From Prostheceraeus crozeri (Eukaryota > Platyhelminthes > Polycladida > Euryleptidae), in the NCBI GenBank assembly GCA_907163375.1, contig CAJQUW010011515.1, forward strand, positions 1-64,000: a stretch of 64,000 nucleotides of DNA. Reading direction: 5' to 3'. Positions 7,526-57,903 of this stretch are shown piece by piece. The notes under the pieces are model-generated. The model did no database searches. It was not told the origin of the DNA and was given only the letters and a program-made list of their open reading frames with translations. The first letter of the stretch is position 1; each line of letters begins with the position of its first letter. A program made the translations under genes and the position numbers.

Positions 7526-7531
7526 GTCGGA
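7526..7531. repeat. Target site duplication GTCGGA, left of Polinton B
   Basis: GTCGGA precedes AGTAGT at the left terminus and is repeated exactly at 25144-25149 after ACTACT at the right terminus. A 6-bp duplication is what Polinton integrases make. Confidence 0.9.
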
Positions 7532-8172: not shown

Positions 8173-8205
8173 AATATTTTATTCACATCACAGACAAGTA
8201 CTATG

Positions 8206-8765: not shown

Positions 8766-8823
8766 TAAATTGAAATAAGGGAAGGGTCATAGTACTATTA
8801 TCTATTGGGAGTAGCTTACCGTT

Positions 8824-10056: not shown

Positions 10057-10091
10057 TCTAGGGGTCCCTTAAGAAATTTTTTTATTATAAA

Positions 10092-10553
10092 ATGAGCAAC
10101 ATAAATGAGTTTTTTAAATTATATGGAACGCAAACTACGACAAATTTCGACCTAAAGAAAATCGCAAATGAATTAGGAATAAAGAATTTTCATGTTCTAA
10201 TGAGAAACGAATTACAATTCCTAAAAAATAGGCCAACAGGAACCTTCAGTTCCCGGAACAAAGTTCCATCAATAACTGTAAATTTCATAACGAATCTTCA
10301 CACTTCAGACCAAAACGGCGTACATTGGTCAGCAGGTATCTTTAGTAAAAACGGAGATAATTATTATTTTGACTCATACGGGCTTCCACCTACAAATGAA
10401 GTAAAAGAATTACTTGGAACGGGAACATACAATACGTTTCAAATTCAAACACCAGGCACTACTTATTGTGGACAATTATGTCTTTATGTTTTATTTAAAC
10501 TACAGGAAGGAGTACCATTTCTAGATATAATGTTAGAATTGAACGAACCGTAG
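10092..10553 (+). CDS. Adenain-like (Ulp1/C5-type) cysteine protease
   Basis: 153 aa. The catalytic residues are recognisable in order: His78-Trp in GVHWSAG, Asp94 in YYFDSYG, an oxyanion Gln (117 or 119) and nucleophile Cys126 in TTYCGQLCLYVLF. This is the layout of the adenovirus maturation protease and of Polinton PRO, which trim capsid precursors during virion maturation. It is intact and close to the family's minimal size. It is one of only two major plus-strand genes in the element and converges with the PLA2-integrase gene. A short GGAAC-AAA-GTTCC palindrome is embedded in its coding sequence near residues 50-58. Confidence 0.85.
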   Translation: MSNINEFFKLYGTQTTTNFDLKKIANELGIKNFHVLMRNELQFLKNRPTGTFSSRNKVPSITVNFITNLHTSDQNGVHWSAGIFSKNGDNYYFDSYGLPPTNEVKELLGTGTYNTFQIQTPGTTYCGQLCLYVLFKLQEGVPFLDIMLELNEP

Positions 10554-10624
10554 GTTCTATGGCTACGCCTAACAAGGGAATTTCATTCCCGAAACGTTAG
10601 TTCCAATAATAATAATAATGATAA
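10554..10624. terminator. Convergent-gene spacer with two hairpins
   Basis: Between the convergent protease and integrase genes lie GAACC..GGTTC and GGGAAT-TTC-ATTCCC palindromes followed by AATAATAATAATG. This could serve both 3' ends; it is inferred from position and structure only. Confidence 0.35.
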
Positions 10625-11929
10625 TTAAAAATCAGTTCGTTGTAATTCATTTTGATAAAAACGGCCTCTGATATCCTCATTATCTAAATCTTTAATTTCA
10701 TAAGTAATCGGATAAGTTTGATTTATTTTGCAAACTTCAAATATTTCTTTAGTCCAATAGCCAACAAAGCCTTTTTCAAATTTATTCTTATATTTAAATA
10801 TTCTAACTCTATCTCCAATTTTAAATTTCGGTTTAAGTTTCTGCAAATTCGGATTACTCTCATTCAAATTATTATTCTCGAATATTTTCTTTCGTATCAA
10901 ATCAGGGTCGTCAGAAGCATTCTTTGGGGTTTCTTCAATACCAGAATGAACTTTATTATTGTACTCTTCCACAATTCCTGGTAATATCTTCAACCATTTC
11001 TGATTTCTTTGCTCAGTAAATTTCTTGAATAATTTATTTTTTAACGTCCGATTGAATCTTTCTATCACTACGGCCTTCCCAGCGTTTTCAGTTGAATAAA
11101 CAGTTTCAAATAGTGGCTGAACGTTTCGGTTATAAAATTCCGACCCTTTATCAACAAACAATTTTTTTGGCTTTCTATTACTTTCTTTAAAGATTTCTTC
11201 AAACGCATATTTAACTGAAAGACCACTTTTATTTTTTAAAGGCTTTACCCAAGCATATCGTGTATATAAATCTATAACGGTCAATGCGTATTTGTAGTCC
11301 CTTTCATTCGGCATATGAATAAGATCAGCACTCCAAATATCATCTTTATTAAATACTTTTACTTTTAATAAATATTTAGGCTTTCTATATTCTTTATGAA
11401 TTTCAGATGCATAAACGTCTGAATTATGATTTTCATTTAAACCCTGGCCGAATAATATTTTAGCTTGTAAAGCTTTCTTAACAAACATTCTTTCAATTTT
11501 TTCTCTAAATGTAGGATTCTGAATACTATCTAATTCTTGAATCATCTTCTTGTCAGCTGCATGTCGAGAACTTAGATCATGATTTCGATAAGCTAAATCA
11601 TGCCTGTAAGCGGCGGCATCTACTCTATTTATTGGTTCTTCACCTGGTTTCGGATTATTATTCTCATCTAGTCTTATATCTAATCGAGTTCCTGGACCGG
11701 TATATGAATGACCAGGAAGATGTTTTTCTTTCGAATATTTACTCCAAATAAATCCAGGAAAGTTTTCTAATGTTTTTTGTATATCACCACCGAAGTGGTG
11801 TGGAACTTTGTTCTTGTCACCTCCAATATGCTGACAATTTGAGTTTTTATTTTTGTTTAATAGATAATTCAATAAATCTAAATTAGAAATTTTTAATTTA
11901 ATTAAATTTTCGGAATTTTTAGAATTCAT
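10625..11929 (-). CDS. Phospholipase A2-integrase fusion protein
   Basis: A single intact 434-codon frame. Residues 71-135 carry a parvovirus-VP1-type PLA2 domain: LPGHSYTGPG forms the Ca-binding loop (GPG 78-80) and DAAAYRHDLAY the catalytic helix (His110-Asp111), followed by ADKK. Residues about 195-300 form an rve/DDE integrase core with Asp202 (SADLIH), Asp260 (FVDKGSEF) and Glu290 (VIERFNRT). Residues 365-430 form the SH3-like C-terminal domain. No HHCC zinc domain is present; PLA2 occupies its place. D260-to-E290 spacing is four residues shorter than in Polinton C. Between the domains, LFGQG (159-163) fits the adenain consensus (M/I/L)xGx-G. PLA2 would help virion escape from endosomes; integrase inserts the genome. 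Proteolytic separation is inference. Confidence 0.85.
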   Translation of the reverse strand: MNSKNSENLIKLKISNLDLLNYLLNKNKNSNCQHIGGDKNKVPHHFGGDIQKTLENFPGFIWSKYSKEKHLPGHSYTGPGTRLDIRLDENNNPKPGEEPINRVDAAAYRHDLAYRNHDLSSRHAADKKMIQELDSIQNPTFREKIERMFVKKALQAKILFGQGLNENHNSDVYASEIHKEYRKPKYLLKVKVFNKDDIWSADLIHMPNERDYKYALTVIDLYTRYAWVKPLKNKSGLSVKYAFEEIFKESNRKPKKLFVDKGSEFYNRNVQPLFETVYSTENAGKAVVIERFNRTLKNKLFKKFTEQRNQKWLKILPGIVEEYNNKVHSGIEETPKNASDDPDLIRKKIFENNNLNESNPNLQKLKPKFKIGDRVRIFKYKNKFEKGFVGYWTKEIFEVCKINQTYPITYEIKDLDNEDIRGRFYQNELQRTDF

Positions 11930-32278: not shown

Positions 32279-33020
32279 AGTAGTAAGTAAAACTCCACTT
32301 CTGGATAGCGCAAGATGGCCGCCGTCGCTGACGTCCCACCTCCTGTCCGTCGAGTCGGTCGTGGTGTGCCGCCGTGTTGCTTCGAGTCTGACGTCCCCCC
32401 CCCTCTGGCCAGCCGTCGTAGCGCGAGGTGATGTGCTCTCCAGGTTGGCGTGGTGTGCCGGCCAGGTTGGGCGGGTGGACTGTCGTAGCTCAACTGAAAA
32501 AATCCTAAGTGTCAGAGTGACTTTGTATGGACAAAATTTTGAAAATTTTCCAAAGTGTGGCATTTCGACCTGGGACCCTGACCAAAGTTTGTTTCATCAA
32601 ATTTCACTGACCCCCCCCGACAGCAATCTTCCAACTTTGGTTCTAGTGGACGGATTTTGTCTTACAGCTACTCGTTTGAAAGAGGAGAAAAAACTGCTCG
32701 ACGACATTTTTGTCGCGAGTCAATCGGACCAGCCGTTCAAAAGTTAGAGCTGTTACAAGATTTTAGGTCGGAGCTCACCTGAAAAAATCCTAAGTGTCAG
32801 AGTGGCTTTGTATGGAAAAAATTTTGAAAATTTTCCAAAGTGTGGCATTTCGACCTGGGACGCTCACCAAAGTTTGTTTCATCAAATTTCTCCGAACGAG
32901 GGGGGTCAGTGAAATTTGATGAAAAATGTTTTGGTAAAGGTCCCAGGTCGAAATTCGGAAGTTTTAAATTTTTCAAAATTTTCACCACACTGGAGCTCTC
33001 ACACTTAGGAATTTTTTCAC
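32279..33020 (+). repeat. Left terminal inverted repeat of Polinton C
   Basis: The outer 240 bp (GC-rich) and one following module match the right end in inverted orientation. The inner half, about 32783-33020, also folds on itself around a GAGGGGGGTCAG centre. Short open frames within it are mirror images of those at the right end and look non-coding. Confidence 0.88.
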
Positions 33021-35823: not shown

Positions 35824-38800
35824 ATGGTAAGTTGAAAATTTCTTCACTCATCTCCCTCAAACGTGTGGCTAATAGCATCTTGCTCAATTTCAGGCATCAA
35901 CTTTATCACCAACGCCCTCCCTCCTCGAGGAAAGTTTAGAGTTGTTGAGTCAAAGTAGGTTGTAACAATACACTGAGACCTGAACAGAGATGATAGAATG
36001 ATTTCTCTTTCAGGTGATGTGAGTTCCAGCTCAGGACTCTCGCGACAAGGCAACGAGTGGGAATGTACCGACTGCGGACATATGTTTACAAGGAAGCACA
36101 GTCTCCTTCGACACATCAAACAACGTGTGTGTCAACGCAAAGCGGCGTCAATCTCCGGAGGTGAAGTTGATTCTGACGATGACATCTCCTTTTCTTGCGA
36201 TTTGTGCCCTCTTTCTTTTGATAGTCACTTTCAGCGATCTTCGCACAGACTTCAACACACGCATGCAAATGATCACTACACCAACGGTACCTCTACCATC
36301 TCCCTCATTAATGTTTCACATAATAATTTAGTACGCGACTACTGCATGGAGTCCAATACTCAAATAGTAGATTTTCCTGAGTGGCTCCTTCAAAATTCTA
36401 ACATTATCGAAGCGCTCTTCAACAATTTAGACAATTTTAGAATGAAGGCGCTCATCTACCTTAAACTAAAATATATTAAGATAGATTTTCAAACGGGTCA
36501 AGTGACGGAGAGAATACAGTTTCATGTTCCTTCCTCTTCCGCAACCGAAGTTGTAGACTGCGAGTCTTGGCTAAATTTTCACATTCAATGTTTAAAATCA
36601 AATGTAGATAAATTCAATCAACGCGACAGCGCTCTCATTTTTGATGGTGTGGACTCAGCCATATTCAAAATTTCCCTATTAGAAAGTCATGCAGCTCGAG
36701 GCACATTTAAACTACCAAAAACGTTGTATAATAAGAAAGCTGTCATCAATGTCGATTGTAAATCACAGTGTTTCAAATATGCAGTCCTATCCATCCTTCA
36801 CTATAATGATATCAACGCGAAGTGAAATCATACCTATAGCTATAGACAGTGGGAGGATGAACTAGACTTTGAAGGTTGTGATAGTAACAACATGAAAATC
36901 AAAGATGTAGAAACGTTCGAAAAACATAATTAGATTAAAATTGTCTTTCACGTGTGGGAGAAGGGGTTGAAGGGTGCCCGCCATAATTCACGTTCAACTT
37001 GTTATGAACGTGTAGTCAACCTCTTATTAGTAAAACAAGATGATAGCGAGGAATGGCACTACTGTGGTATTCCCAAAATCTCTCGCTTGTACACTCACTT
37101 GGGGCACTCTAAAAGAGGTGAACATTTTGTATGCGACCGCTGCATCCGCTCCTTTTGGAGTAAAGATAAATTTGAGACTCACTATGAATGGTGCAAGCGA
37201 GGTAAATTACAAATGGAACGCATGCCCAAAGATAAAATATTTTCACATAGGGATAATGGTGACGAATTAAGTCCCCTGCGTGTCATTTACGCAGACATAG
37301 AATGCTACATTGATGATATCATCCACAAACCAGCAGCCATATCCAGCTATGAAGTATGGCATGACCACTTTAGGAATAAACAAAACAAAATGCATACTTG
37401 GCAAGGTGAAGATTGCATTTCAAAATTTCTAGAATTTCTCGATAAAGCTGCTAAATTTCAACAATCATATGATTCCCAATTTCAGCGTAAGTCACTACAT
37501 CTGTCAGATGAAGACAAACAAAAATTTGAAAGTTACACATCGTGCCCTAAATGTCATAAAACGTTTGATGACGATAAAATTAAGAAAGTGCGTGATCATG
37601 ATCACATCACTGGTAAATTTAGAAACGCACTCTGCTCCAAATGTAACTTTTCACTTAGGTTGAGACGTCGTGCACTACCCGTCATTTTTCATAACCTTAA
37701 GGGCTATGACAGTCATATGCTCATAAAAGGAGGGTTGAGCCAGATGAAATCGTGGCAGTTTAATGTAATAGCGAAAACGAGAGAAACATTCATGGCAATG
37801 ACAGCAAAAGTACCAGTAGATAAAACTAAAAAAAATAAGACAGTCTTCTTCGAAATAAAATTTTTACATTCATTCCAATTCATGTCAGCGTCACTAGCTT
37901 CTCTCGTTCGTAATCTCAAGTTTCTTCCCCATAGTCAAACTTTGAAGAAACACTATCCAAACTTAACGGATGAAATAATCACTCGCGAAGGAGTCTTTCC
38001 CTATGCGTATTATAGCTCAATGTCTAAACTAAATGAAACTACCCTTCCTTCCATTGACAAATTCCAAAACGATTTGACGGGTCAAGATTGTCCAGTAGAG
38101 GACTATGAACATGCTCAAGAGGCATGGTTAAAATTTGATTGTAAAACGTTTGGCGATTATATGATCGCTTACTTAGAATTAGATGTCATTTTGCTGGCTG
38201 ATGTCTTTCAGGAATTTCGACGAGTGGCATTAGAAGAAGACAAATTAGATCCTGTCCACTTTGTCAGTCTACCAGCCATGTCCTTTAAATCAGCCTTTAA
38301 AATGACTGGTGAGACCATCCATCTCTTACAAGACCCCGAGATGTATAACATATTTGAGCGCGGAATACGCGGTTGTCTCACATTTGTGAATAAACATCAC
38401 ATAAAATCTAAAACAATAGGTAATGATCATATCCGTCTAAAGTACTATGACCAAAATAATTTATATGGCAGTTCACTGTCTAAACCACTACCTCATTCCG
38501 AGTTTAGTTGGTTAAATCAAGATGAGCTTACGTATTACTCCAACCCTTCAAACATTCTGAAGATTCCAGATGAAGGTGATTGGGGATATTATTTTGAAGT
38601 GGATTTGATTTATCCAAATAGTATTAAAAATAAAACTGCTGATCTCCCACTCGCACCTGAATCTGGTGAAGTGACTGAAGATATGTTTTCACCATTCATG
38701 TCACAATTTCATAATAACTTAACAGAGTGTGGACAGCCAAGGTACAAACCATGCCGCAAACTTTTGCTCACCCAATATGATAAGAAAAATTATCTCGTGC

Positions 38801-39796
38801 ACTTCTGCATACTAAAATTCTATTTAGAAATGGGCATGCTTCTAAAGTCAGTTCACCGCATTATCAAATTTAGACAGAAAGCCTTCCTCAAACCCTACAT
38901 AGATAGTAACAGTCAAAACGTGCACTCGCCCAAAATAATTTTGAAAAGGATTTTTATAGATATAAGAATAACAGTCTTTTCGGAAAGACCATGGAGGATG
39001 TTAGAAAACGTATGAACTACAAACTAGTCGTTGATGAACAAAAATATCACAAATTGACCTCATCACCTCTTTTCATTGATAGAGACATCATCGATGAGGA
39101 TCTTGTAGGTGTTAAAATGATAAAATCTGAAGTTGAGTTGTGCAAACCCATCTCTATTGGGGAAGCCGTTTTAGATTATTCCAAGCTTGAAATGTATCAA
39201 CTCTTCTACAAAATATTAAAACCATGCCCTCTCGTAAAAGAGGTTCGCTTGCTGGGTGGTGATACAGATAGTTTCTTTTTAGGTATTACCACTCAAAAAG
39301 ATTTAAATTTTAATGAAGTAGGTAAGTCATTAGAAAAATATTTCGACACATCTAACTACAATCCCACTCATCCACTCTATTCCATTCAGAATAAAGCCAA
39401 ACTTGTTGTTTTAAGGATGAAACAGCAGGAAAGGAAATAAATGAAATGATTCTCCTCCGTCCTAAAATGTATTCCATGAAATTAAAAGAATGTGCAGATA
39501 GTATTAAGCGTGCTAAAGGTATATCAAAATCCATTGTTCACAAAATGAAACATCGGTCCTATAAGAAGGCCTATAAAAATAAAACTATAACGTTTGTCAA
39601 TATGACAATCTTAAAATCTCAAGTTCATACTGTGAAAACGCACACGTTCAAGAAACGAGCACTTTCAGCATGGGAAGATAAGAGGTGTTGGATAGGACAT
39701 AACACATCTCTTCCACATGGACATCCTGACACAAACATACCTCCACCCAAAAGAATAAAACTCACGCTACTACATTCAGGAGATGTATTGACATAA
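35824..39796 (+). pseudogene. Zinc-finger family B DNA polymerase of Polinton C, spliced 5' end, disrupted
   Basis: Exon 1 ends with the ATG itself (35824-35826). Introns 35827-35893 and 35955-36013 have GT...AG ends and restore one frame starting ASTLSPTPSLLEES. The N-terminus has two C2H2-like fingers (CTDCGHMF...H..., CDLCPLSF...H...H). Exonuclease motif YADIECYID lies near 37290, a CPKC...HDHITG...CSKC endonuclease-VII-like zinc site at 37540-37650, motif A YDQNNLYG near 38450, and motif C GGDTDSFFLG near 39260. In-frame TGA (36823-36825) and TAG (36931-36933) and frameshifts near 38880-38990 (motif B region) and 39430 break it. It replicated the element by protein priming; this copy is dead. 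Confidence 0.88.
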
Positions 39797-41634: not shown

Positions 41635-41643
41635 ACTTTTGCA

Positions 41644-43035
41644 TTAACTCTTCATTCGGAAATGGAGTGTGATACTTGTCACAGCATCTTTATGAAAAGG
41701 AATCAACGCACCAGCATCGTCATAAATGGCAATATCAATTTGTGGGATGTAGTTTGATTTCAGCTTTGTATAATGCACTTTCTTGAAAGTATGCTCAGAT
41801 AAAATACTACAGCTTTTTGGCTGGTATGGTATCATTGCTAGCAATGGAGCTTCAACATCTCCCACACGTACATCTTCACCAATATTGGAATATATCTGAA
41901 AATAGTTAATACGACGCGATAGCGACATGTCTGCGCTAGCTTTGGTTACAGTACGACTTTTAAAGATATTTTGATCAAAACCCAAAATGTCCATTAGAGT
42001 TTTATTCATAATTAGTTCAATACCTTTTCCACTTATAGTGAGAGACAAAGTACCTTCTTTTTCAGAAAATGAAATATGTTGCTCATTAATCACTTCATTT
42101 AAATAATCTACAACCAATTTAACTGAAGTAATAATGCGAGGCATCAACACTCTTGTTTCATGTAAGATACCACCTAAAGGCTCTACACACTATCTGTATA
42201 AAGTCCATTCTGTATCAAATTGTTTTGACCTTTCACATGCTAAATGTTGCATATCAAATTTTCCATGAACAGCTGCAGAATGATGTCGTAAGAACTGATG
42301 AAAATCTTTTGAACAAACTAATACTAGATTATCATCATTTAATTTACTTATTGCAATATGATTAGATGATTTGATATAAGTCAATGTTGCCACTTGTTTA
42401 CCATCGACTCGAAGGAGATAATTAAATTTCTTCAATAATGTTTCAGGAGTCATGTTTGTCTTTCTTGGCTTAATCACAATCTTCTTCACCAACGTCTTCT
42501 CATTTCTTGGAATAAGATCTACATAATAAGCTTCCTCTCGATATATTAACTGTTTATAACCACTTATGTGGTAATTAACGTTAAAATTATCATAGCTTGT
42601 TAAGGCGCTAGCGAGGTAACCTAAATCATTTCTTAAACTTGGACTTAAACCAACAATCCAATCTTTCTCAACTACATGATGTACATAATTATGATCATCA
42701 TTGTGCGGAGTAAATTGGACAATATGTTTACACGCTTTATTCAGGAAATCATATATAAACTTTTTACATGATAAGAGATCTTTCTTTGGCCACTGTGGAA
42801 TGTATACTCGGCATCCCTTTTCACATTGGTAAGCAGCTGTACGTCTCATATTAATAGTCATCACCTCATGATCAAAAGTATAGACACAGTTGCTATAAAC
42901 AAGTTGAGTGACACCCACTTCCCAATTTCCATTTAGCTGTTGTGTATGATCAATGGGAGTAGAAAAGAGTGCGGCTCGGTTACTAGCAAATCTATTTGCG
43001 ACCGCATTGCTAAGCAAAATATGATAAAACGACAT
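41644..43035 (-). pseudogene. Penton-like minor capsid protein, one in-frame TAG
   Basis: Two parts in the same frame (43035-42193 and 42189-41644) are separated only by TAG at 42190-42192. The first opens MSFYHILLSNAVANRF...LNGNWEVGVTQLVYSN, and the second ends YIPQIDIAIYDDAGALIPFHKDAVTSITLHFRMK, the terminal strands characteristic of penton-type jelly rolls. The total is about 463 codons. It lies directly downstream of the capsid-region promoter area and next to its larger paralogue on the same strand. A single nonsense mutation is the simplest reading; readthrough is not excluded. Confidence 0.65.
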
Positions 43036-43058: not shown

Positions 43059-43364
43059 TTGCATAACATCATGAAGACTTGGATTTTGGACTCTCTACAA
43101 TATATCAGAGTTGATCGTGATGGAAACGTACATTTCAAAAATTCTCATGGTCATACATCAAGAGGTATTACATTAACATGGCGACAATTTGTCAACCTCA
43201 ATGATATCATGAGGGATTTGGAATATTTTGAAACATTAAGATTCATCTCCTTGGGTGATCAAGTTTGGCTTCAACATTACAGAAATGAAATTCAAATCTA
43301 CCATTCTCATTTCGCAAATACAATTGGGAGAAGTATAGAAGATACATACATCGCTCCATCATGA
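43059..43364 (+). pseudogene. PC4-like ssDNA-binding protein, truncated tandem copy 1
   Basis: 101 codons; residues about 10-55 (LDSLQYIRVDRDGNVHFKNSHG...ITLTWRQFVNL) fit the PC4/Sub1 fold: strands with 'GxVxFKxxxG', then 'ISLTxxQFxxL' and a helix. The following 60 residues and the downstream TATA-like GTATAGAAG parallel copy 2, but the frame stops where copy 2 leads into the TBP gene. It is therefore a duplicated and truncated promoter-proximal unit, though a short PC4-like protein could still be made. Confidence 0.5.
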
Positions 43365-43430
43365 CATTTATTCATCGTGAGTTCATCGCCCTACTATGCA
43401 AATCTTAATCAGACATGACTACCACGCACC

Positions 43431-44080
43431 ATGAGTTGGAAATTAGATTCCCTACAACGTATTGAAACGGATCATGATCGAAACGTCTATTTCAAAGATT
43501 CAACTGGAAATGTGAGAAGAGAGTTTGCTTTATCTTACCGTCATTTTCAATCTCTACATCAAATCATGAAGGATTTGAAATACTTCTATATGAAAAGACA
43601 TTCACGTATGGAAATCGCATCTGGTTGCGCGTCAACAATCGGCGAATTCAACTCTATCATTCCCAACTTCATACTAACTTCACATTTCATCAAGGTAGTT
43701 GGGAAAAGTATAAAAGGAAGGTACATCGCTCAATTTACTCATTCTTTCATCATGAAGCGTCATCGCTACACCATCGTCAACATTCTCCGTCGCTTCAGAC
43801 TCTACACCAAAATCGATCTCACAACATTACACCAACACCTTCCAAACAGCAAGTATTACCCGGGCCGACCTCAAATGTTAGTGGTGAAGATGAACAATTC
43901 ACGGAATCTTCAACTCTTCCCAAATGGGACTGTACAGATTCTCGGCGCCCTTTCTCATTCATCGGCGCAGTCAATGCGCTTAGAGCTACAAAGACTACTA
44001 CGTCGGATATGGAAGAGGGAGAGGTGTGTGATGTCGAATCTGACTGTGGACAATATGGTGATCTCTACTCAATTGAGTGA
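43431..44080 (+). pseudogene. PC4-like protein, tandem copy 2, probable frameshift, overlapping TBP-like gene
   Basis: It begins MSWKLDSLQRIETDHDRNVYFKDS, homologous to copy 1 through the PC4-like domain (residues 1-55). Near 43585 homology with copy 1 passes to another frame, which then stays open to a stop at 44080. That second frame encodes a His/Ser/Pro-rich linker and an acidic end (DMEEGEVCDVESDCG). Either an indel occurred near 43585, or the N-terminal part reads straight into the TBP-like frame as a PC4-TBP fusion. PC4 proteins bind single-stranded DNA and stimulate transcription with TFIID. Assignment of the fold is moderate; gene limits are uncertain. Confidence 0.45.
43709..43716 (+). 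promoter_or_regulatory. TATA box of the TBP-like gene
   Basis: TATAAAAG ends 35 nt before the ATG at 43752. This spacing gives a transcript starting just ahead of that ATG. The tandem copy 1 has the decayed equivalent TATAGAAG. Confidence 0.6.
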
Positions 44081-44297
44081 AAGTGTATCATTTTTGAAGA
44101 TTCGTACCAGCAGTTACAAGTTGTGTTATGAACCCGAACTTTTTCCTGCAGCTCTCATTAGTTGTTGGTTACCCGTGCATGTGGCAATCTTTCATAATAG
44201 TAAAGTGATCTTTACTGGATTAAAATCTCATGTACAAGCAAATGTGATCCTAGACTATCTCATCGACTATGTACGTACCCAGCGGATTGTAAAATAA
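43752..44297 (+). CDS. TATA-binding-protein-like protein (two-repeat core)
   Basis: 181 aa from ATG 43752, the size of a bare TBP core. Repeat 1 (residues about 4-88) reads YTIVNILRRF...KIDLTTL...SKYYPGRPQMLVVKM...LQLFPNGTVQILGALS; repeat 2 (about 93-180) reads LTVDNMVIS...YEPELFPAALISCW...VAIFHNSKVIFTGLKS. The paired 'Y-x-P-x-x-(F/P)..hhh..N/S-G/K-x-V-x-x-x-G-A/L' pattern, once per repeat, is the TBP saddle signature, and YEPELFP is close to the eukaryotic TBP motif. It is intact, with its own TATA box, immediately after PC4-like genes. It would recruit transcription machinery to element promoters or compete with host TBP; this is inference. Confidence 0.75.
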   Translation: MKRHRYTIVNILRRFRLYTKIDLTTLHQHLPNSKYYPGRPQMLVVKMNNSRNLQLFPNGTVQILGALSHSSAQSMRLELQRLLRRIWKRERCVMSNLTVDNMVISTQLSESVSFLKIRTSSYKLCYEPELFPAALISCWLPVHVAIFHNSKVIFTGLKSHVQANVILDYLIDYVRTQRIVK

Positions 44298-44352: not shown

Positions 44353-44785
44353 TCATTTTTTCATTAGAGGATGGATTACATGAAAAGTTTTGAATAACAG
44401 ATGCAAATCGAGATACATGTAAACGTTTAAGATGAAGTACAGTACAAAAGCACCACACGTTGATGAAAGTGGATGTTGTAGTATGCGTTCATTTCGCTGA
44501 TATTGACGCGTATGTTTTCTCAACCACTGCTGTGTTGGTATATTTGGAGGTTGAGCAAGAGAGTCAAATAGTTCACCACGTCGGTCTTCTCCAATAAAGA
44601 TCGCTTTCCAATGCTCCACCACCTAAATTCTGCGAATGAGTGTTTAGCACAATAAAGATGGGATAGTGATTTACTGCAGGTGGTAAGGTATCGAGTGAAT
44701 AGACATTATCGAAAGCTTTCAACGTCGCTTCGTCTGCATTACGCTGCACTTTAGTCTTAATATCGTCAGCAGTCGACCAACTCAT
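44353..44785 (-). pseudogene. Adenain-like cysteine protease, frameshifted
   Basis: The N-terminal part lies in 44785-44573 and the remainder in 44622-44353, in a different frame, with the switch near 44600-44622. The catalytic His is in EHWKAIFI, an Asp in ELFDSLAQPP, and Gln plus Cys in LQHPLSSTCGAFVLYF, the order of the adenovirus maturation protease. The gene abuts the MCP gene (shared base at 44785), consistent with co-expression. One indel disables this copy. Confidence 0.75.
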
Positions 44786-46062
44786 TAACGATTATACTGA
44801 AGAATCACGTCACGATACTTTGTAATTTCAATATTTGAATCGAAAACTGCATAAATTAATACATTGATCGTCTCAGGTAGTGTTCTTTCGAACATCAAAT
44901 CCAAACGAATATTATGAGGCACGTTCGCTTGACGATAGGGTGCACTAATATCGCTGTCAGCAGTCAAATCAAATGCATAAATAGTATATCCACTCTTAAA
45001 CTCTTTCATAGTGAGTCCATTGGTGTCATCCGTATTGTAAAAGCCAAAGACATCCATAAAATCAACATAACTGCGCATAAATTGATCCGCAGCAAAATCT
45101 GGTTTGTAGGGTGGACCAGGATGACTCACACCATTTACACGTAAAGCAATTTCACTTAACTGATTGTGTTTAAAATTGAAAGGTTTCTTCTTTATATTAC
45201 CATTAAATGCGTCATTTTCAACCATTGCCACCATGAGGAGCTTCGGTGCTTCCGATGGAAAGAGGCCACCTTTCATGAAACTCTTTTGATATTTCGGAAT
45301 TGTAAAGGTGAGAAGCTTTGTATGCTGAAAAGGGTAAATGGCATTTTGGCGGTTAAGGCCTTCAGCATGCCCTCTAATGACACTTGGATTCGGTACTACT
45401 CGACGAATGTAAAGTGCAATATCTTCCACATGAATTCTAAAATTGTCAACTTTAGCAAATGCATTCAGCGCAAATTCAGGCTTATTCAATGTCAGCTTGA
45501 GTCGCATGCTGATATTACAGAGTAAAAACTTTGACTGTCTAAAGAAGTCTAAATTCAGCGGACCATATAGCTGACATACTCTACTATCTTTAATCATAGC
45601 AGATCGCTTTACAAAGCCACTGTTTGTTTCAACATCAAATTTTCCTGCTTCATCTCTGTACCATCCCATGGCTTCCATATGACTTTTTTGTGCTGCTGGA
45701 TGAAACTGTGATACATGATTGAAATATGATTTATAGGGATAATCGCTTTGACCACCTTCCACCTGCTGCTCTCCAATCGTTAGAGAAACATCGCGAAGTA
45801 ATGTAGTCAATGGTAAATTGTTCAGTCCAACTTTATGTGTATCGTCAATAGCAGTTCCATCTGCTTGCTGAATTCTAAACCTCAAATCAAGCATCGCATA
45901 ACTCAAATCTATGTAGTCATCACTACCACCAGGAATAACAAATGCAATGGGGCCAGCATTCTCAGCTGTTCGAGGATGATAATCTACAATACTTGAACTA
46001 AGAATATCTGTCTGTATGGCTTGTTGATCGAACAAACAAAAACCGGAAGTTTTACACTCCAT
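44785..46062 (-). CDS. Major capsid protein (double jelly-roll) of Polinton C
   Basis: 425 aa, intact. Beta-rich with the characteristic early 'PIAFVIPGGSDDYIDLSYAMLDLRF', the central 'LNLDFFRQSKFLLCNISMRLKL' and the late 'YTIYAFDLTADSD' strand, matching the Polinton hexon-like family often labelled 'F54H12.2-like' in animal genome annotations. Length is typical. The overlap of the upstream basic-protein gene with its 5' end and the protease abutting its 3' end mark the structural module. It would form the capsid shell. Confidence 0.85.
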   Translation of the reverse strand: MECKTSGFCLFDQQAIQTDILSSSIVDYHPRTAENAGPIAFVIPGGSDDYIDLSYAMLDLRFRIQQADGTAIDDTHKVGLNNLPLTTLLRDVSLTIGEQQVEGGQSDYPYKSYFNHVSQFHPAAQKSHMEAMGWYRDEAGKFDVETNSGFVKRSAMIKDSRVCQLYGPLNLDFFRQSKFLLCNISMRLKLTLNKPEFALNAFAKVDNFRIHVEDIALYIRRVVPNPSVIRGHAEGLNRQNAIYPFQHTKLLTFTIPKYQKSFMKGGLFPSEAPKLLMVAMVENDAFNGNIKKKPFNFKHNQLSEIALRVNGVSHPGPPYKPDFAADQFMRSYVDFMDVFGFYNTDDTNGLTMKEFKSGYTIYAFDLTADSDISAPYRQANVPHNIRLDLMFERTLPETINVLIYAVFDSNIEITKYRDVILQYNR

Positions 46063-46520: not shown

Positions 46521-46561
46521 AGCTCAAACCCTAAACATTGTTAGCTACAACTTTGCATGAA

Positions 46562-47783
46562 TCACTGTCGATCACTTAGATGAAAGATGTCGGCACGACG
46601 CATCCAAGAGTTCATACTTGAAGGATAACCAGTCCATTTAACAAGACACCATTCTTCACCTTGCCGTTTTTTACATCGAATGATTTTCTCTACCAAATAT
46701 GTTTCACTTTCAGTGACTACCTCAATCTCATCGCGGTAAAAGCTACCCTCAATTTCTTCATTATCGTAATCTTTCAACTTGTATGTGGTCGGAGAGTCTT
46801 TTTGATTAATCCTTGATACTGTAAATACCTCCTCTGTCCAATTCGGGAGGTACCCTTTAGCAAAAACACTTTTCACTTTTGAGATACGAACTTCATCGCC
46901 AATTTTCACATCACTTTTCACATGAGTGCGTTTACGTTGGAATGATTCGCGCACTTTATCTACATTGTCAGCATTTACATCTACTGGTCTGAGTCCAATA
47001 GAACGATGGATAGAGTGATTGTAGGCATGGAGTGTATCTTGTAGAACCTTTGTCCAATTTTGTGTCAAGTTGGCAGTAAAAATGTCGCCACAAGCGATTT
47101 TTTAATGTGCGATTAAAACGTTCAACGAGTGCAGCTTTATAAGCACTCTTTACACTAAACAACTCAATGTCATGCCTCTCAAATAATCTTCGCACATGCT
47201 GATTTTCAAACTCTTTTCCTTGATCACTCTGAATTCTTTTTGGAATGCGACCTTCTCGAAAAATTGTTTGGAATGCTTTTGCTACTCCTTTCCCTTCTTT
47301 AGTTTTTAAAGGTTGAGCCCACGCATAACGCGAGAAAATATCAATGACGGTTAAAATAAAATTATTGCCCGAGTTATGTTTTGAAATGGAGGCAACATCA
47401 CACAAATCTGCTTGCCACTTTTCATCGATGTCATGAACAATATAATGGCGGGTGCGGTACTTCTTTTTCGCTTGTTTGTGGAGTGTATAGGTAGCCTGAC
47501 CTTTTAACCATCGTTTCACTTGTGATTGTGGAAGACCACTCGCTTTTGATAATTTCTTGATTGATGCAAATCCTGCCGGATGTTTTACATCATAATAGAT
47601 TGACTTCAAACGTTCAGCCGATGACGACTGACTCTTTTTCCTCCTTCTCATCTTTTTGTTTTCTTGCCTTTCTACATTTACAACAACTGCAGCATTTAGC
47701 TTTAGCGGTTTTGCGATCGTGTTCACATTGCTTAGGGGTTTCATTGTGAGAGCTGGCGCAGCAAGTGCAAGTGACAACGACAT
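46562..47783 (-). pseudogene. Chromodomain integrase, frameshifted
   Basis: The N-terminal frame (47783-46968) holds a Lys-rich leader, a helix-turn-helix-like segment (IKKLSKASGLPQSQVKRWL), and the rve core with Asp in WQADLCD, Asp in QSDQGKEF and Glu in ALVERFNRT (D-x33-E). The frame shifts at a T run near 47080. The remainder (47068-46562) continues with the SH3-like domain (VKIGDEVRISKVK) and ends in a chromodomain (YLVEKIIRC...WCLVKWTGYP..MNSW). Chromodomains target integrases to modified histones. One indel disables this copy. Confidence 0.85.
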
Positions 47784-47830: not shown

Positions 47831-48523
47831 TTAATAGTCTGAAAACATGTATTTCCTGGGAGGAGCTGTTTTACGTTTTCCTTTTACTAGTTTTAATGGT
47901 GATGTAGATCTACGTCGAGTTCTTCCTCTTGTTTGCTTAGTGAGTGTGGGAGGGGATGCAGCAGGTGACGTCTTAAACCAATTTGTTGGCATTTTCATCG
48001 TCTGAAGCATTGGAGCAGTAGCCACTGTTGAATCAAGTTCTTTCAATGTCTCATTATTCAAAGCAAATTTTGGCACATTATGCTTTTTCAATAGTTTAAG
48101 AAAGTATGACCAACCAGGTGGAACATAGCCCTGACGGCGCTTTCTACGTGTCGCATACTGAATCAAGTCTTCATAACGTGAAGCATCAATCACTTTATTT
48201 TCATTTGTAATGATTTCTCCTCTATCATTTACATTGAGATGGGGTTCAATACTGTTGAAAAGAGATATGGCATGTGCGCGAGATGCTAAAGGTGTAGCAG
48301 TCGATACAGAGTCACGCATCTTATTCTTCAAGTTTTTCAATTGCTCAACAGTTTCCGATTGTAATAATACAGCACGATGTGGATCTTTGATGTGAACATT
48401 TTGCTGATAATCTATTTCTTTCCTATACATTTGATTTGCAAGAGGTTGCTTTACTTGCTGCATGGCAGTCAATTGTACATATTCATCCTGAGGAATAACA
48501 ATCATGCGAGAATAAGAACTCAT
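47831..48523 (-). CDS. Conserved Polinton protein, 230 aa, between integrase and ATPase
   Basis: Intact version of the gene at 1-484. The N-terminus MSSYSRMIVIPQDEYVQL is followed by a charged helical region; the central 'YEDLIQYATRRKRRQGYVPPGW' and 'FLKLLKKHNVPKFALN' resemble a compact DNA-binding or packaging domain. The C-terminus is basic (TRGRTRRRS, KGKRKTAPPRK). It overlaps the ATPase stop by 4 nt, indicating coordinated expression. A virion or packaging partner is inferred from position. Confidence 0.6.
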   Translation of the reverse strand: MSSYSRMIVIPQDEYVQLTAMQQVKQPLANQMYRKEIDYQQNVHIKDPHRAVLLQSETVEQLKNLKNKMRDSVSTATPLASRAHAISLFNSIEPHLNVNDRGEIITNENKVIDASRYEDLIQYATRRKRRQGYVPPGWSYFLKLLKKHNVPKFALNNETLKELDSTVATAPMLQTMKMPTNWFKTSPAASPPTLTKQTRGRTRRRSTSPLKLVKGKRKTAPPRKYMFSDY

Positions 48524-49185
48524 AGTTTGTAGATAATCATGGGAGTTTTCAAAATATCACTTCGAAATCTAAATTCTTCCGGACACTCTTGCGTAAAGTC
48601 AATGAAAAAGTAACCGTATGGTTTTTCAGTAGCTGCTTGAAAAATTTCAATTAAGGCTTTTGATCCTCTGGGTGCAACTTGTCGCGCTAAAATTTCAAAT
48701 TGACTTTTATCTCGCGGATTCTTGAAAATAGCATAATAGTGTGTATTCAGGTTTCGTGTACGAGCTTCTTTTCCATCAGGAAACAAATTTTGTGTGATAT
48801 AGATGATAAAGCACCTTTTATGATGTGCTGCGCGAGTGAACATATCTGTAACATCTTTTGAATTCTTACTTTCTTTTAATAGATCATCCAATTCAACAAC
48901 ATCATTAGACTGAAGTTTATCCACTGCAATACTTCCTTCATGTCGAATAAAGTTGCGACTTTGCAATTCCTGAAACAGCGACGGTTGATAAATACCATAA
49001 CACCAAATCACTCGATTGATAGGTTTCTTAAACAACTCCCTTCTTTTATCCAATAAATTCAGCGTGAAAACAGTTTTACCTGCATGAGATGGACCTGATA
49101 CAGTCAGAACTTTATCACATTGAAGTCTGAAATCCATTTTAATACTTTGAGATTCAACATTTGCATAATTAACGCTTAGAGCCAA
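48520..49185 (-). CDS. FtsK/HerA-type genome packaging ATPase, intact
   Basis: 221 aa. Walker A is GPSHAGKT (31-38), a Walker B-like DVVELDDLL is near 96, and the FIIYITQNLF strand carries a sensor Gln. The C-terminal 'QVAPRGSKALIEIFQAATEKPYGYFFIDFTQ' block is typical of Polinton ATPases. The 5' end overlaps the basic-protein gene by 17 nt and the 3' end overlaps the 230-aa gene by 4 nt. It would drive DNA into the capsid. Confidence 0.88.
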   Translation of the reverse strand: MALSVNYANVESQSIKMDFRLQCDKVLTVSGPSHAGKTVFTLNLLDKRRELFKKPINRVIWCYGIYQPSLFQELQSRNFIRHEGSIAVDKLQSNDVVELDDLLKESKNSKDVTDMFTRAAHHKRCFIIYITQNLFPDGKEARTRNLNTHYYAIFKNPRDKSQFEILARQVAPRGSKALIEIFQAATEKPYGYFFIDFTQECPEEFRFRSDILKTPMIIYKL

Positions 49186-49534: not shown

Positions 49535-49585
49535 TTTCCGTGTTAGTCTTTGCTAAAACCTATCTTTACCACAATTGCATACGTA

Positions 49586-49915
49586 CTAACTATTGCGGCA
49601 TAAGTGACACTCGAAATGAGCAATATCACCGTGGTTACATTTGCAAAGTTGAATGCAATTACGTATGAAACAGCGTTGACAAAAAGCGTGCTTACATCTC
49701 TTGAAGATGCGCTTTTCATTTCCATCCTTTCGCTTACATACATCGCAACACATAGTTTCACCGTTACTGATGTCTATAGCAAGTCTTTTTGAAGATATGA
49801 ATTTGCTAGCCTTTTCTAAATAATAGACGCATGTACAGAAGGAATATACTTCGAGAGTGAGCAGAAATGGCTCGAAAACCGGTTGTGCTACAATCAAGTA
49901 CCACTGCATTTTCAA
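49586..49915 (-). CDS. RING-finger-like protein (Polinton C copy)
   Basis: 109 aa, N-terminal hydrophobic segment then CCDVC...CKHAFCQRCF...CKCNHGD...CHLC. The Cys-to-Gly change in the second-last cluster relative to Polinton A (CNHCD) may alter a spare ligand rather than the core RING. It overlaps the next gene by 4 nt. Confidence 0.6.
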   Translation of the reverse strand: MKMQWYLIVAQPVFEPFLLTLEVYSFCTCVYYLEKASKFISSKRLAIDISNGETMCCDVCKRKDGNEKRIFKRCKHAFCQRCFIRNCIQLCKCNHGDIAHFECHLCRNS

Positions 49916-50322: not shown

Positions 50323-50409
50323 GATCGCCCTTTATCTAACCCATCCATTGCATGAAAACAACAACTCTTCTCATAGTAACATTTATTGACTAACGGTAAC
50401 AAGCATGCA

Positions 50410-52620: not shown

Positions 52621-53532
52621 GTCAGTGAAATTTGATGAAACAAACTTTGGTGAGCGTCCCAGGTCGAAATGCCACACTTTGGAAAATTTTCAAAAATTTT
52701 TCCATACAAAGCCACTCTGACACTTAGGATTTTTTCAGGTGAGCTCCGACCTAAAATCTTGTAACAGCTCTAACTTTTGAACGGCTGGTCCGATTGACTC
52801 GCGACAAAAATGTCGTCGAGCAGTTTTTTCTCCTCTTTCAAACGAGTAGCTGTAAGACAAAATCCGTCCACTAGAACCAAAGTTAGAAGATCGCTGTCGG
52901 GGGGGGGGTCAGTGAAATTTGATGAAACAAACTTTGGTGAGCGTCCCAGGTCGAAATGCCACACTTTGGAAAATTTTCAAAATTTTGTCCATACAAAGTC
53001 ACTCTGACACTTAGGATTTTTTCAGGTGAGCTCCGACCTAAAATCTTGTAACAGCTTTAACTTTTGAATGGCTGGTTCGATTGACTCGCGACAAAAATGT
53101 CGTCGAGCAGTTTTTTCTCCTCTTTCAAACGAGTAGCTGTAAGACAAAATCCGTCCACTAGAACCAAAGTTAGAAGATCGCTGTCGGGGGGGGGGGGGGG
53201 GTCAGTGAAATTTGATGAAAAATGTTTAGGTGAGGGTCCCAGGTCGAAATGACACACTTTGGAAAATTTTCAAAATTTTACCCACAGAAAGCCACTCTGA
53301 CACTTAGGATTTTTTCAGGTGAGCTACGACAGTCCACCCTCCCAACCTGGCCGGCACACCACGCCAACCTGGAGAGCACATCACCTCGCGCTACGACCGC
53401 CGGCCAGAGGGGGGGGACGTCAGACTCGAAGCAACACGGCGGCACACCACGACCGACTCGACGGACAGGAGGGGGGACGTCAGCGACGGCGGCCATCTTG
53501 CGCTATCCAGAAGTGGAGTTTTACTTACTACT
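52621..53532 (-). repeat. Right terminal inverted repeat of Polinton C
   Basis: A module starting GTCAGTGAAATTTGATGAAA begins at 52621, 52910 and 53201 (about 290-bp period), followed by the GC-rich terminal 240 bp ending ACTACT. The left arm has fewer modules, so the arms differ in length. Long G runs precede modules 2 and 3. Confidence 0.88.
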
Positions 53533-53538: not shown

Positions 53539-53825
53539 TATTGATTATACGACTCTACCTGATTCTACCTGATTCGGTGACTAAAAAGAAATTTCCTTTA
53601 AAACTGGGATGGCTTTTGATCAGATATTGTCAAAAATCATTTATTTCTCGTATACCATGCATCGGCATTTTGACAGAATTAGCCTACTTTAATATCGATT
53701 GAACATGATTAATTGCTTTTGGGGAACAATGATAATGAAAATTAACTTTCAGCCTAATGTGTTTATTAAGCGGCACAATAATTACTTAATTATCAAAGTG
53801 CCGTTTACTGAACACATATTTGAAC

Positions 53826-53988
53826 TGTGCCGATCTCTATGTTTTGTTTATATTGATCAAATGTCTTTGTTTGTATTCTTGCGATTTGTTCAATATACTT
53901 TCGAGCGCTTATAGCGTGCTAACGAATTTGAGTGTTCTGTCTTGTACACATGTACATTTATTAAGATACCGGTGCATAGACCGGCACA
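53826..53988 (+). repeat. 5' LTR
   Basis: 163 bp with TGTGCCG/CGGCACA inverted ends; differs from the 3' LTR at only a few positions. Confidence 0.92.
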
Positions 53989-54075
53989 TTTATGGTGTCA
54001 GAATAAAACTGATATTTTGAGGTCTCCTTAATAATATTATTTGCTATTTTTCCAAATAATTCTCGTTTACCTATT

Positions 54076-55305
54076 GTGATTATGGCTGGAATTATTAGAC
54101 AGCCTCAGTTGCCCGCTAATCCTAATGCTGAGGACTGGCGCTTCTTTAAGAGATTATTTGGTAAATACTGCTCTATCCACTCTGTGGATGATAAAGAGAA
54201 GCCAGCTTTGCTAGAGATGTGTCTAGGTAGGGATTGTTTGAGTGTTCTTGACGGCTTACCAGACCCGAAATCCACGTATGCTGAAATAGTTGACCGCATG
54301 GATAGTTATTTCCAAATTAGTTCTTCTTTGCTTATCCGTAGGAGAGATTTTATTCACGCTTCACAGAAAGATGGTGAAAGTGCAGGTCAGTTTGCTTGTC
54401 GTCTTCGTAGGATGGTGCAGGATTGTGGTTACACTAACGATAAGGCCAGCTTGTTAAGGGATGTTTTCGTGATAGGTGTACGTGATTCCAGGCTGTGCGA
54501 GCGGCTCTTGACAGAAGACCTTAGTACATTGACTTTTGAGCTAGCTTTACGAAAGGCTGAAGCATGGGAGACTGCTCGCGCTGATAGAGTGAAGGTTGAT
54601 TTTCAAACTAAAGCAGAAGTTAACGCTGTTCACTCAAGCGAGAGTAGGCCTACCAAGCCCAACGTTTCTTTTCTGAAAAATGAAGTTAAGCAGGACTCCA
54701 AGTCAGGTCGGAGCGACTTTTCTGGTGCTAAGTCGGATCAGTCAAAGGTCAAGCGTGCTTGTTATCGTTGCGCCTCAACAGAACATTTAGCCAATAGCTC
54801 CACTTGTCCTGCTCGGAATCGAGTATGCTCAAAATGTCAAAAGAAAGGCCATTATGCGAAATGCTGTTCGGAAAGTAGAACTACTGTTTCCCATGTCACT
54901 GAGTGTTTGAAAACCAAGAAACTTGCTGAGGAGACTCTAGATATTTATCATGTATCCAGTAGGCCTAGGGTCGAGGATGTGATTCGTAGCGTTGAAATCG
55001 ATGGAACTCCTGTTGACGCCTTGGTTGACACAGGTGCTTTCGTTAATGTGATATGTGTAAAGAATCTTTGTGATGATCATACGATCACTGCAGTGCATAA
55101 TAGCCTGAATGCCTATGGGAAAAAGAAATTGACTTGTTTAGGTATCGTTGACCTGCCAGTGAAGTATAACAGCAAATCCGTGTCCGCTACATTTTTTGTT
55201 TGTGAGGAGGATGATCCAGTTTTGCTCAGCTATGCTTTATGTCATCGTTTAGGAATTATTAGAACGGAGGGTGACGTGATGGTGATATCATCCGTGTTTG
55301 ATTGA
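54076..55305 (+). CDS. gag: gag-protease polyprotein of the LTR element
   Basis: 409 aa. An alpha-helical capsid-like region (residues about 15-170) is followed by two CCHC zinc knuckles (CYRCASTEHLANSSTC and CSKCQKKGHYAKCC, about 230-275) and an aspartic protease with VDALVDTGAFVNVICV (about 310). It packages the RNA and cleaves the polyprotein. The stop overlaps the pol frame by 8 nt, so pol is probably expressed by frameshifting or reinitiation. Confidence 0.88.
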   Translation: MIMAGIIRQPQLPANPNAEDWRFFKRLFGKYCSIHSVDDKEKPALLEMCLGRDCLSVLDGLPDPKSTYAEIVDRMDSYFQISSSLLIRRRDFIHASQKDGESAGQFACRLRRMVQDCGYTNDKASLLRDVFVIGVRDSRLCERLLTEDLSTLTFELALRKAEAWETARADRVKVDFQTKAEVNAVHSSESRPTKPNVSFLKNEVKQDSKSGRSDFSGAKSDQSKVKRACYRCASTEHLANSSTCPARNRVCSKCQKKGHYAKCCSESRTTVSHVTECLKTKKLAEETLDIYHVSSRPRVEDVIRSVEIDGTPVDALVDTGAFVNVICVKNLCDDHTITAVHNSLNAYGKKKLTCLGIVDLPVKYNSKSVSATFFVCEEDDPVLLSYALCHRLGIIRTEGDVMVISSVFD

Positions 55306-57148
55306 AGGTCCGAGCTCTGTTCCAATGTCCAAAGCATGTCGTGTTGTACTGAAGGAGGGTGCTGAACCGAGTTCTTTTCGGGCTCGCAGGTTGCCGATTG
55401 CTCTTCATGAACCCGTACGGTCTAAGTTGCAGGAGATGGTGAAGGATGGCGTGATCGAGGAGGTTAAGGAACAAAGTGACTGGTGTTCCCCCATAGTCGT
55501 TAGTTACAAGAAGTCTGGAGATGTAAGACTGTGTGTTGATTTTCGCTATGTCAATAAGTTTGTAAAACGGCCTGAGCTACAAATGCCCACTGTTGAAGAG
55601 ATGACGAGTCGTATCCGAAGAGCTCGTTTCTTCTCTAAGTTGGATTGTAAGAACGGATTTTGGCAGATTCCCGTTGCCGAGGATTGCAGGGATGTACTTA
55701 CCTTTTCCACTCCTTTTGGAAGATTCAGGTTCAACAAATTACCGTTCGGACTAGCATCTTCTCCAGAAATTTTCCAGAAATTTATGTCTGAAATCTTGTC
55801 GGACTTGACTAACGTTTGTTGCTACCTTGATGACATTTTGCTCTACTCGGATACTGAGGAAGAGTCTGCAGTTCTGCTTGAGGTGTTGAGAAGGATAGAT
55901 AACATGGGAGTGAAACTGAATCATACCAAGTGCTCTTTTCACCAACCGTCTGTTGAATTCATAAGCTACACGTGTTCTGAAAGTGGTGTGATGCTTTCCA
56001 GGAAGTTGATTGATGATGTCCTAAACACACCGATACCAGAGAACACTGCGGCATTGCGATCGTTTTTAGGCCTAGCGTCCTATGTCTGTCATTCGAATGT
56101 TCCCCACTGTAGTACGCTACTGCAGCCATTGTGGCAAGTGCTGTCACACGATACTTGGGACTGGACTGCTGACGCTGATGAAGCTTTCAAGCGCCTGAAA
56201 GATGTTATGAATGATATCCACGCTCGAAGATACTTTCAGCCAGACAAGCAAGTTGTGGTTCAGAGCGATGCATCTGGGTATGGATTGGGTGGCGTGCTAC
56301 TGCAAGAAGGACACGCTGTCATGTTCGCTTATCGTAGACTCACTGACACTGAGAGGAGGTATTCGCAGGTTGAGAAGGAATGCCTGGGTGTGTTGTTTGC
56401 GTTGAATAGGTTCCGAAATTTTCTGATTGGACGCAATTTTAAAGTTCAGACCGATCACTTACCTTTGTTGAGACTACTGGAAAAGCCAGTTGATGTTCTA
56501 TCTATGAGATTGAGAAGATGGATTATGAGCATGCAATCTTTCACGTTTGATTTTGAACACATTAAGGGAAAGGTTAACATTCTGGCTGATGCTCTGTCAC
56601 GAAATCCTGTCCATTCAACTGAGGCCACAGATGGTGAGAGGGAGGACGTGACTATTTGTTTTATTCGAGATGTGATTTTTGCTCTTTTCGGTATGCCCGA
56701 AAGAATAATTTCTGATAACGGCACGGCCTTCAAAAGTGTTGAGTTTGAAGATTTTTTGAGAAGATGTGGAGTTGCTCATCATTGTTCTTCCGTTTACTAT
56801 CCTCAGGCGAAAGGTGCTGTTGAGAGAATGCATAGGACTCTGAAATCAAGGATCTCTAGAATGAGATTGTCCCACCCAGAGGTTTCTTTTGAACGCAGAT
56901 TCCAGAAGGCGTTGTATGATATTAGGAGTACTTTCAATGAGTCCACCGGTGAATCACCAGTGAAGAGGTTGTTAGGTCGGGAGATGAAGTCACACTTGTC
57001 GACCAATAGCGAACCAAGAAAGGTTAAGGAACAAAGTCTGGCCAAGCACTATGCTAGGATGAAAGGCGTTTCGAGGAGCTATGGGGTAGGACAGAAAGTA
57101 TATACCGCAGAGGTAGTGGAAGTGATTTCGAGTATCCTGGGGAGGTGA
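55298..57148 (+). pseudogene. pol: pol polyprotein (RT-RNase H-integrase), integrase internally deleted
   Basis: 616 codons. RT motifs include LCVDFRYVNKF, FSKLDCKNGFWQIP, FNKLPFGLASSPEIFQ and CYLDDILLYS; RNase H has VVQSDASGYGLGGVLLQ and VEKECLGVLFALNRF. After NILADALSRNPVHS the sequence jumps almost at once into the middle of the integrase (IFALFGMPERIISDNGTAF...KGAVERMHR), so the HHCC zinc domain and first catalytic Asp are missing. Near 57140 the frame changes and the C-terminal domain (GEATYRVQFPGG) continues in another frame to 57318. RT and RNase H look intact; integration would need help in trans. Confidence 0.88.
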
Positions 57149-57735
57149 TAGAGAGAGTGGGTGAAGCCACCTATCGAGTCCAGTTCCCGGGAGGACGAAG
57201 TTCCGTGATAAACCAATACAACCTGAAGCCAAGGTGGAAAGAGAGCGACTCTGACGAGTACCTCGAGATTTCGTACGATGCAGAAGGTGGAGGAACGATG
57301 AGTATATTCCGTCCGTAGACGCCACCGGAGGAGAAGTCGAGCGAAGCGGTGGGACGAGAGACGCTGTCGGGAGAGACGTCGGACGAATCGGTGGGACCGT
57401 AGACGGGATCAGAGGAGAAGTCGGACAAGCAGGTGGAACAGTGGACGCAGTCGGGAGAGACTCGCAAGCAATGCAGACGAATACATGCGGAGGACGACCA
57501 AAGCGAGGCGAAGATCAGCCGACCGCGAGAAGTCGCCCAGGACGGACGCGGAACCGACCGCGGTACCTTGACGACTATGAGACTGACTTATCGTCGTAAG
57601 GAGTAATAACTATGACTGTTTTCTACTTGCGTCTTGAGATACGACCGTGCTATGAATTTGTGGGAGATTGGGACTGAAACTGTGTTTTTGCTTTCACCTG
57701 ACTAACGGCCTACTTTCTCCAGACAAAAGGGGAAG

Positions 57736-57898
57736 TGTGCCGATCTCTATGTTTTGTTTATATTGATCAAATGTCCTTGTTTGTATTCTTGCGATTTGTT
57801 CAATATACTTTCGATCGCTTATAGCGTGCTAACGAATTTGAGTGTTCTGTCTTGTACACATGTACATTTATTAAGATAACGGTGCATAGACCGGCACA
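57736..57898 (+). repeat. 3' LTR
   Basis: Matches 53826-53988 almost exactly; preceded by the purine tract and followed by the TGAAC duplication. Confidence 0.92.
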
Positions 57899-57903
57899 TG
57901 AAC

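Follow-up and report, generated by a model that had tools for sequence, protein, structure and literature searches.

An altered TATA-binding protein is carried by a virus-like Polinton-type element of a flatworm, probably for turning on the element's own genes

The window, i.e. the whole stretch of 64,000 nucleotides analysed here (contig CAJQUW010011515.1 of the polyclad flatworm Prostheceraeus crozeri), contains a Polinton-type element whose features are collected in Table 1. Terminal inverted repeats bound the element, flanked by target repeats of 6 bp, the length typical of Polintons, and it encodes a retrovirus-type integrase. Further hallmarks of Polintons are a protein-primed DNA polymerase B, an adenain-like protease, a packaging ATPase and jelly-roll capsid proteins. 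The region assigned to a B-type DNA polymerase matched no Pfam polymerase profile and no PDB entry; beyond the Endonuclease_7 match and the GGDTDS motif, its label comes from the usual anatomy of Polintons. The candidate major capsid protein matched no Pfam family and gave no convincing profile match, and its weak, partial match to the PHROG family 'late promoter transcriptional regulator' (0.0047) was taken as chance. As convincing profile matches were lacking, the polymerase, capsid and ATPase regions are labelled by their position, their motifs and the usual Polinton anatomy. A 107-aa cysteine-rich frame (49586-49909) has RING-like spacing by eye and no significant Pfam match. Just to the right of the Polinton, two long frames (54082-57148) look by eye like Gypsy-type gag and reverse transcriptase/integrase, with direct repeats of 168 nt on either side (53822-53989 and 57732-57899).

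Table 1. Features of the element and its surroundings (positions are those of the window, except in the last row)
Feature	Position	Strand	Basis or remark
Polinton-type element, 21,254 bp, termini AGTAGTAAGT...ACTTACTACT	32279-53532		Outermost inverted match
Left target-site repeat AACAAA	32273-32278		Read directly
Right target-site repeat AACAAA	53533-53538		Read directly
Left terminal inverted repeat	32279-32890		620-column match, 95% to right end; further repeats inside
Right terminal inverted repeat	52914-53532		Inverted match to left end
DNA polymerase B-type region, several broken frames in window copy	35998-39796	+	Endonuclease_7 5.6e-07, GGDTDS motif
ATGCAA box	41639-41644	-	40 nt before ATG at 41604
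ATGCAA box	43059-43064	-	29 nt before ATG at 43035
Shorter gene resembling Whirly/PC4-like gene, 97 aa	43071-43364	+	Open frame
ATGCAA box	43396-43401	+	35 nt before ATG at 43431 (Whirly-like gene)
Upstream Whirly/PC4-like gene, frameshifted in window copy	43431-44080	+	P0014/P0016 and relatives
TATAAAAG box of TBP gene	43709-43716	+	Within upstream gene's coding region; starts 43 nt before ATG
Polinton TBP gene, 181 aa, two TBP repeats	43752-44297	+	PF00352 match
C48-like cysteine protease fragment, frame broken	44353-44622	-	PF02902 E 0.0032, below Pfam cut-off
Candidate major capsid protein	44785-46062	-	Position and length only
ATGCAA box	46553-46558	-	38 nt before ATG at 46520
rve integrase	46968-47783	-	PF00665 5.3e-11; PHROG transposase 1.5e-10
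Candidate packaging ATPase	48520-49137	-	GPSHAGKT loop by eye; weak ATPase matches only
ATGCAA box	49161-49166	-	29 nt before ATPase-like gene at 49137
ATGCAA box	49575-49580	-	46 nt before ATG at 49534
ATGCAA box	50348-50353	-	31 nt before ATG at 50322
Family-2 loci	L047, L051, L058 (G000:C2604:277894-296708)		

The element also carries the gene of a TATA-binding protein (TBP). A sequence-only reading had described it as an intact 181-aa frame with both TBP repeats and the motif YEPELFP, and all of this was borne out: the frame is open when read directly, PF00352 matches it in two stretches (E 1.9e-19), and the motif is in place. The protein has the two-lobed saddle fold, which spans its full length with the two repeats, at 18-27% identity to solved TBP structures and without an N-terminal extension. 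The extent of the frame is less settled, as in the window copy the same frame is open upstream to 43419, giving 292 codons; among the best 150 genome copies scored, the open frame at TBP has 234 codons in most and 292 in some besides the window. The 181-aa reading is nevertheless likelier, because relatives start at the TBP domain or at most ~30 residues from it. A single 288-aa fusion protein is disfavoured, since relatives are mostly ~160-230 aa long with starts near the TBP domain, and since most copies have the shorter open frame. E-values, purifying selection and database relatives rule out a chance frame.

The window's own 2.05-Gb assembly was searched for further copies, and the element is present in at least 150 near-identical ones (the best 150 of 11,857 loose first-look candidates were scored). 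Across these best 150 the TBP is 98-100% identical with stops in none, and it is 181 aa long in all 18 readable loci of the 20 fetched for this family (family 1). An older set of seven loci, three of them with stops, encodes TBPs that are 82-83% identical. Comparison of the window gene with six older copies gave omega values of 0.17-0.25 for codons 1-108 and 0.27-0.46 for codons 111-181 (L002, a near-identical copy, was uninformative), and the TBP gene is under purifying selection. With P0010 as the query a second family was found, whose TBP is 43.7-45.4% identical to that of the window (12 loci); part of the 150 matches scored in that search were apparent family-1 copies. It is an abundant second Polinton family of the same genome, and one copy measures ~18.8 kb with 1,565-column inverted repeats (98%). 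In the stretches read, family 2 matches the window family in its polymerase (~61%), TBP and g49912-like genes and retains Whirly-like genes too, and at E 1e-3 no relative of the window family's capsid, ATPase, integrase or protease was found there. Family 2 is possibly a non-autonomous lineage mobilised by family 1. Occurrence of the gene in other elements had been singled out beforehand as a point to check, and it is not a host insertion in one copy: such a reading is ruled out by the PF00352 match, the best 150 genome copies, all open, and the second family with the same gene. Two more TBP-bearing copies ranked high for a distant query, L054 (225-aa open frame) and L057 (180-aa), and are possibly a third family or old family-2 copies. 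The load of TBP-bearing Polintons is very large, as each of four genome searches yielded a full 150 best matches from 7,353 to 11,857 loose first-look candidates, with overlap between searches and three matches of one search being host genes.

The TBP gene shares sequence with its upstream neighbour. The Whirly/PC4-like gene has an open frame at 43478-44080 in the window copy and is open over at least 220 codons in 12 of 18 readable copies; its tail overlaps TBP codons 1-109 in another frame (43752-44080), and this two-frame overlap is conserved across families with ~45% identical TBPs. The TATAAAAG box that had been reported 35 nt upstream of the TBP gene is indeed separated from the ATG by 35 nt, but what surrounds it is coding sequence of the upstream gene and not an empty spacer. 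The box occurs once in the element, both strands counted, and is kept in 18/18 readable family-1 loci (20 fetched) and 11/12 family-2 loci; of four older copies, one (L033) has a changed version. When the shorter, 97-aa gene was compared with L034, it matched its own copy (85%) and also the region of the second gene (37%); it has no Pfam match. An identification as PC4 by sequence was rejected, no Pfam match having been obtained.

Residues of the DNA face and of the TFIIB loop were counted in an alignment of the complete set of 124 TBP-type proteins, among them that of the window, with the sequences that have a residue at the site as denominators; a first alignment had comprised a hand-picked 73 of the 124. 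Position numbers are those of yeast TBP, set on a microsporidian sequence. In repeat 1, the F99 position is occupied by P in 106/107 proteins and by Q in the remaining one, L114 by Q in 103/112, V122 by Q in 112/112, and T124 by L or M in 110/112, while F116 is kept in 112/112. Repeat 2 retains N159 (121/124), F190 (123/124), F207 (124/124) and T215 (121/123), and the glutamates of the TFIIB loop are present at E186 in 123/124 and at E188 in 124/124. Repeat 2 is not wholly unchanged, since L205 is replaced by A in 47 and by T in 21 of the 73 sequences of the first alignment. The intercalating phenylalanines of canonical TBP are F99, F116, F190 and F207, and its central hydrogen-bonding residues are N69, T124, N159 and T215. 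Element-type TBPs thus have three of the four phenylalanines, together with N69, N159, T215 and the TFIIB-contacting glutamates of the C-terminal loop. Because F99 is replaced by proline, the product is a TBP homologue and not a canonical TBP. The replacements in repeat 1 are uniform (P, Q, L or M) and not mere decay, a pattern in the alignment that suggests a selected surface.

Relatives were collected in a first protein-database search, which yielded 17 proteins, 15 of them TBP-type, and in a profile search, which gave 707 at E ≤ 0.001, the best 120 of which were taken; these are known from the proteins alone, without their contigs, so that 'Polinton-type' is an assumption for them. No relatives were found in viral contigs, for which the queries were the window frame, A1, A3 and also the capsid candidate, or in bacterial and archaeal genomes, and phage records contained none of the TBP or of the ATPase candidate. 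TBPs of IMG/VR viral contigs (12 loci matched, 11 readable; L069 was dropped) mostly keep F99 (10/11) and T124 (8/11), unlike the element TBPs, and have both TFIIB glutamates in 11/11, although one of the two search patterns requires them (YEPE). In a 46-row tree, built without L061, L067, L069 and a host TBP-related fragment, a 100/100 branch separates the 33 Polinton-type proteins, which alone make up one side and sit on a very long stem, from the other rows, nine IMG/VR rows among them, so within this sample of IMG/VR matches the element TBPs do not group with those of viral contigs. The tree program warned of long branches, which makes the deep placement of the Polinton-type TBPs unsafe, with no nearest cellular or large-virus relative nameable. 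Host TBP exons were seen in the same genome (L021, L023 (G000:C9306), L022 (G000:C3829), with a second host TBP-related gene). The exons are 72% and 94% identical to microsporidian TBP; the second gene is 39-40% identical, has lost phenylalanines and resembles TRF2/TBPL1, a likeness that would point to a bilaterian animal as the host. The element TBP is distant from the host TBP of its genome and falls in a separate clade.

A short box recurs before the genes of the window element. Of the 4,096 possible hexamers, none is more over-represented than ATGCAA at 18-60 nt before gene starts (7/17, p 1.1e-9, corrected 4e-6). The 17 starts were hand-chosen, one of them set at the second ATG (41604) rather than the first (41634), and moving it to the first leaves the box before 6/17 (corrected p 2e-4). 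The distance from box to ATG is 29-46 nt, similar to that of the TATA box in the TBP gene; ten of the 17 starts are without one, including those of the polymerase region, TBP, integrase and capsid candidate. ATGCAAA is not enriched element-wide (8 found versus 6.8 expected), and only its position is. Comparison with four older copies shows the box conserved in 19/20 gene-by-copy pairs, as against 234/520 for control hexamers of the same stretches, these copies being one subfamily and the 20 comparisons not independent. No ATGCAA precedes the gene starts listed for family 2, and the family-2 counterpart of g50322 reads ATGCTA in place of the window's ATGCAA. Since both families share the repeat-1 changes and the listed family-2 starts are without the box, these changes alone do not specify ATGCAA, which may be family-1-specific or belong to a host factor.

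The proposal that the TBP is the element's own transcription-initiation factor finds support in two features of the protein, a TFIIB loop that has been preserved and a repeat-1 surface with uniform replacements. We lean towards the view that the TBP of this Polinton lineage serves as its own promoter-recognition factor with changed specificity, acting through host TFIIB and Pol II. Its binding, partner, targets and timing we infer as follows. Host Pol II would first transcribe the TBP gene from the conventional TATAAAAG box, and the product would then go to element promoters with altered specificity, where repeat 2 would keep most canonical contacts and the rebuilt repeat 1 would recognise a sequence different from the 3' half of TATA. 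The intact EPELFP loop would bring in host TFIIB and, through TFIIB, Pol II. In family 1 the likeliest target would be ATGCAA, found at the TATA position before genes that include several presumed virion genes. A purely late-gene role fits family 2 poorly, because TBP is kept there without recognisable virion genes or box, and the job of the factor would hence be broader than late-gene switching. A bolder version, which we hold to be rather doubtful, is an orthogonal core-promoter system of Polintons on host TFIIB and Pol II, in which the rebuilt repeat 1 swaps TATA for an element box (ATGCAA in family 1) and the TBP gene, overlapping in two frames with that of a Whirly/PC4-like cofactor that binds single-stranded DNA, is locked to it across families.

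The promoter part of this account has a rival that is quite possible, namely that ATGCAA is the site of a host POU/Oct-type activator and the element TBP binds ordinary TATA. The POU octamer has ATGCAAAT as its core, and ATGCAA resembles this octamer, which host POU factors bind; ATGCAAAT is found in two of the seven boxes, and family 2 is a case of TBP without the ATGCAA box. Yet the following letters leave the octamer incomplete in five of the seven, and the distance of the boxes from the ATG is that of TATA, which for the TBP gene begins at 43 nt.

Other readings deny the protein a promoter role of this kind. The gene content of family 2, in which polymerase-type, TBP and Whirly-like genes occur and no window-related virion gene or integrase was found, would suit a function in replication or transposition, with the TBP fold bending DNA at the ends or at an origin and helping PolB or the integrase. 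This is unlikely, as such a function would not need a nearly invariant TFIIB loop and the genes of family 2 still require transcription. That same loop, kept while one intercalating phenylalanine and the central threonine are lost, could mark a partner binder that grips TATA poorly, and a dominant-negative TBP of this sort would tie up TFIIB or sit on host promoters and weaken host transcription. We regard host interference as distinctly improbable, given that the repeat-1 sites are replaced by the same residues across relatives and not just degraded, and that a strong inhibitor in so many inherited copies would presumably be costly. Frameshifts in some genes of the window copy would agree with a captured host TBP that is decaying without function, but this is scarcely credible in view of omega values of 0.17-0.46, the open frames of the best 150 scored copies, the same residue changes in relatives and the distance from the host TBP of the same genome.

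TBPs are already known in large DNA viruses. Mirusviruses have one in 59% of genomes according to PMC10132985, and PMC10675990 mentions TATA-binding proteins for elements tied to mirusviruses. The words TATA and TBP are absent from the main text of a Maverick survey (PMC8097293) and, by term search in the text, from PMC11071308, PMC11071296 and PMC10120064; in PMC12220804, TATA occurs only within an author's name in the references. In the same Maverick survey, Polinton particles are said not to have been observed (PMC8097293). Among the non-subscription papers listed as matches, none was recognisable by title or abstract opening as a report of a Polinton TBP, which does not amount to absence from print. 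A transposon-like virus of ~20 kb that encodes a TBP of its own would, to our knowledge, rank as the smallest system of this kind. Since the element TBP retains the contacts to TFIIB and has a rebuilt DNA face in one lobe, it allows a direct test of whether a TBP can recode promoters, for which one small protein and short DNA sites suffice, and it offers a handle on how Polintons time their genes.

The element resembles known Polintons/Mavericks in its terminal inverted repeats, 6-bp target repeats, rve integrase, polymerase-type region with Endonuclease_7, and protease fragment. Its TBP shares with cellular TBP (the TFIID subunit, PF00352) the full-length two-repeat saddle, the phenylalanines and threonine of repeat 2 and the EPELFP TFIIB loop, and differs from it in having P, Q, Q and L/M for F99, L114, V122 and T124, in lacking an N-terminal extension and in forming a separate clade. 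A virus-encoded TBP fold is also found in giant viruses, and named giant-virus matches were obtained in a viral structure library; the likeness to the poxvirus intermediate factor VITF-3 is remote and within the range of chance matches. Viral TBPs often lose both TFIIB glutamates and are usually accompanied by a viral TFIIB-like protein, as stated in PMC7221094, and none of the element ORFs submitted to Pfam matched a TFIIB profile. Alike in proposed action is the herpesvirus TBP mimic ORF24 of KSHV, which PMC12529657 describes as a virus TBP that works on a non-TATA box of virus promoters with host Pol II. ORF24 depends on a C-terminal domain and on partner proteins, neither of which is seen for the element TBP, and it keeps the N-lobe phenylalanines and is without the TFIIB glutamates (numbered E184 and E188 in PMC12529657), so that on this description its pattern is the mirror image of that of the element TBP.
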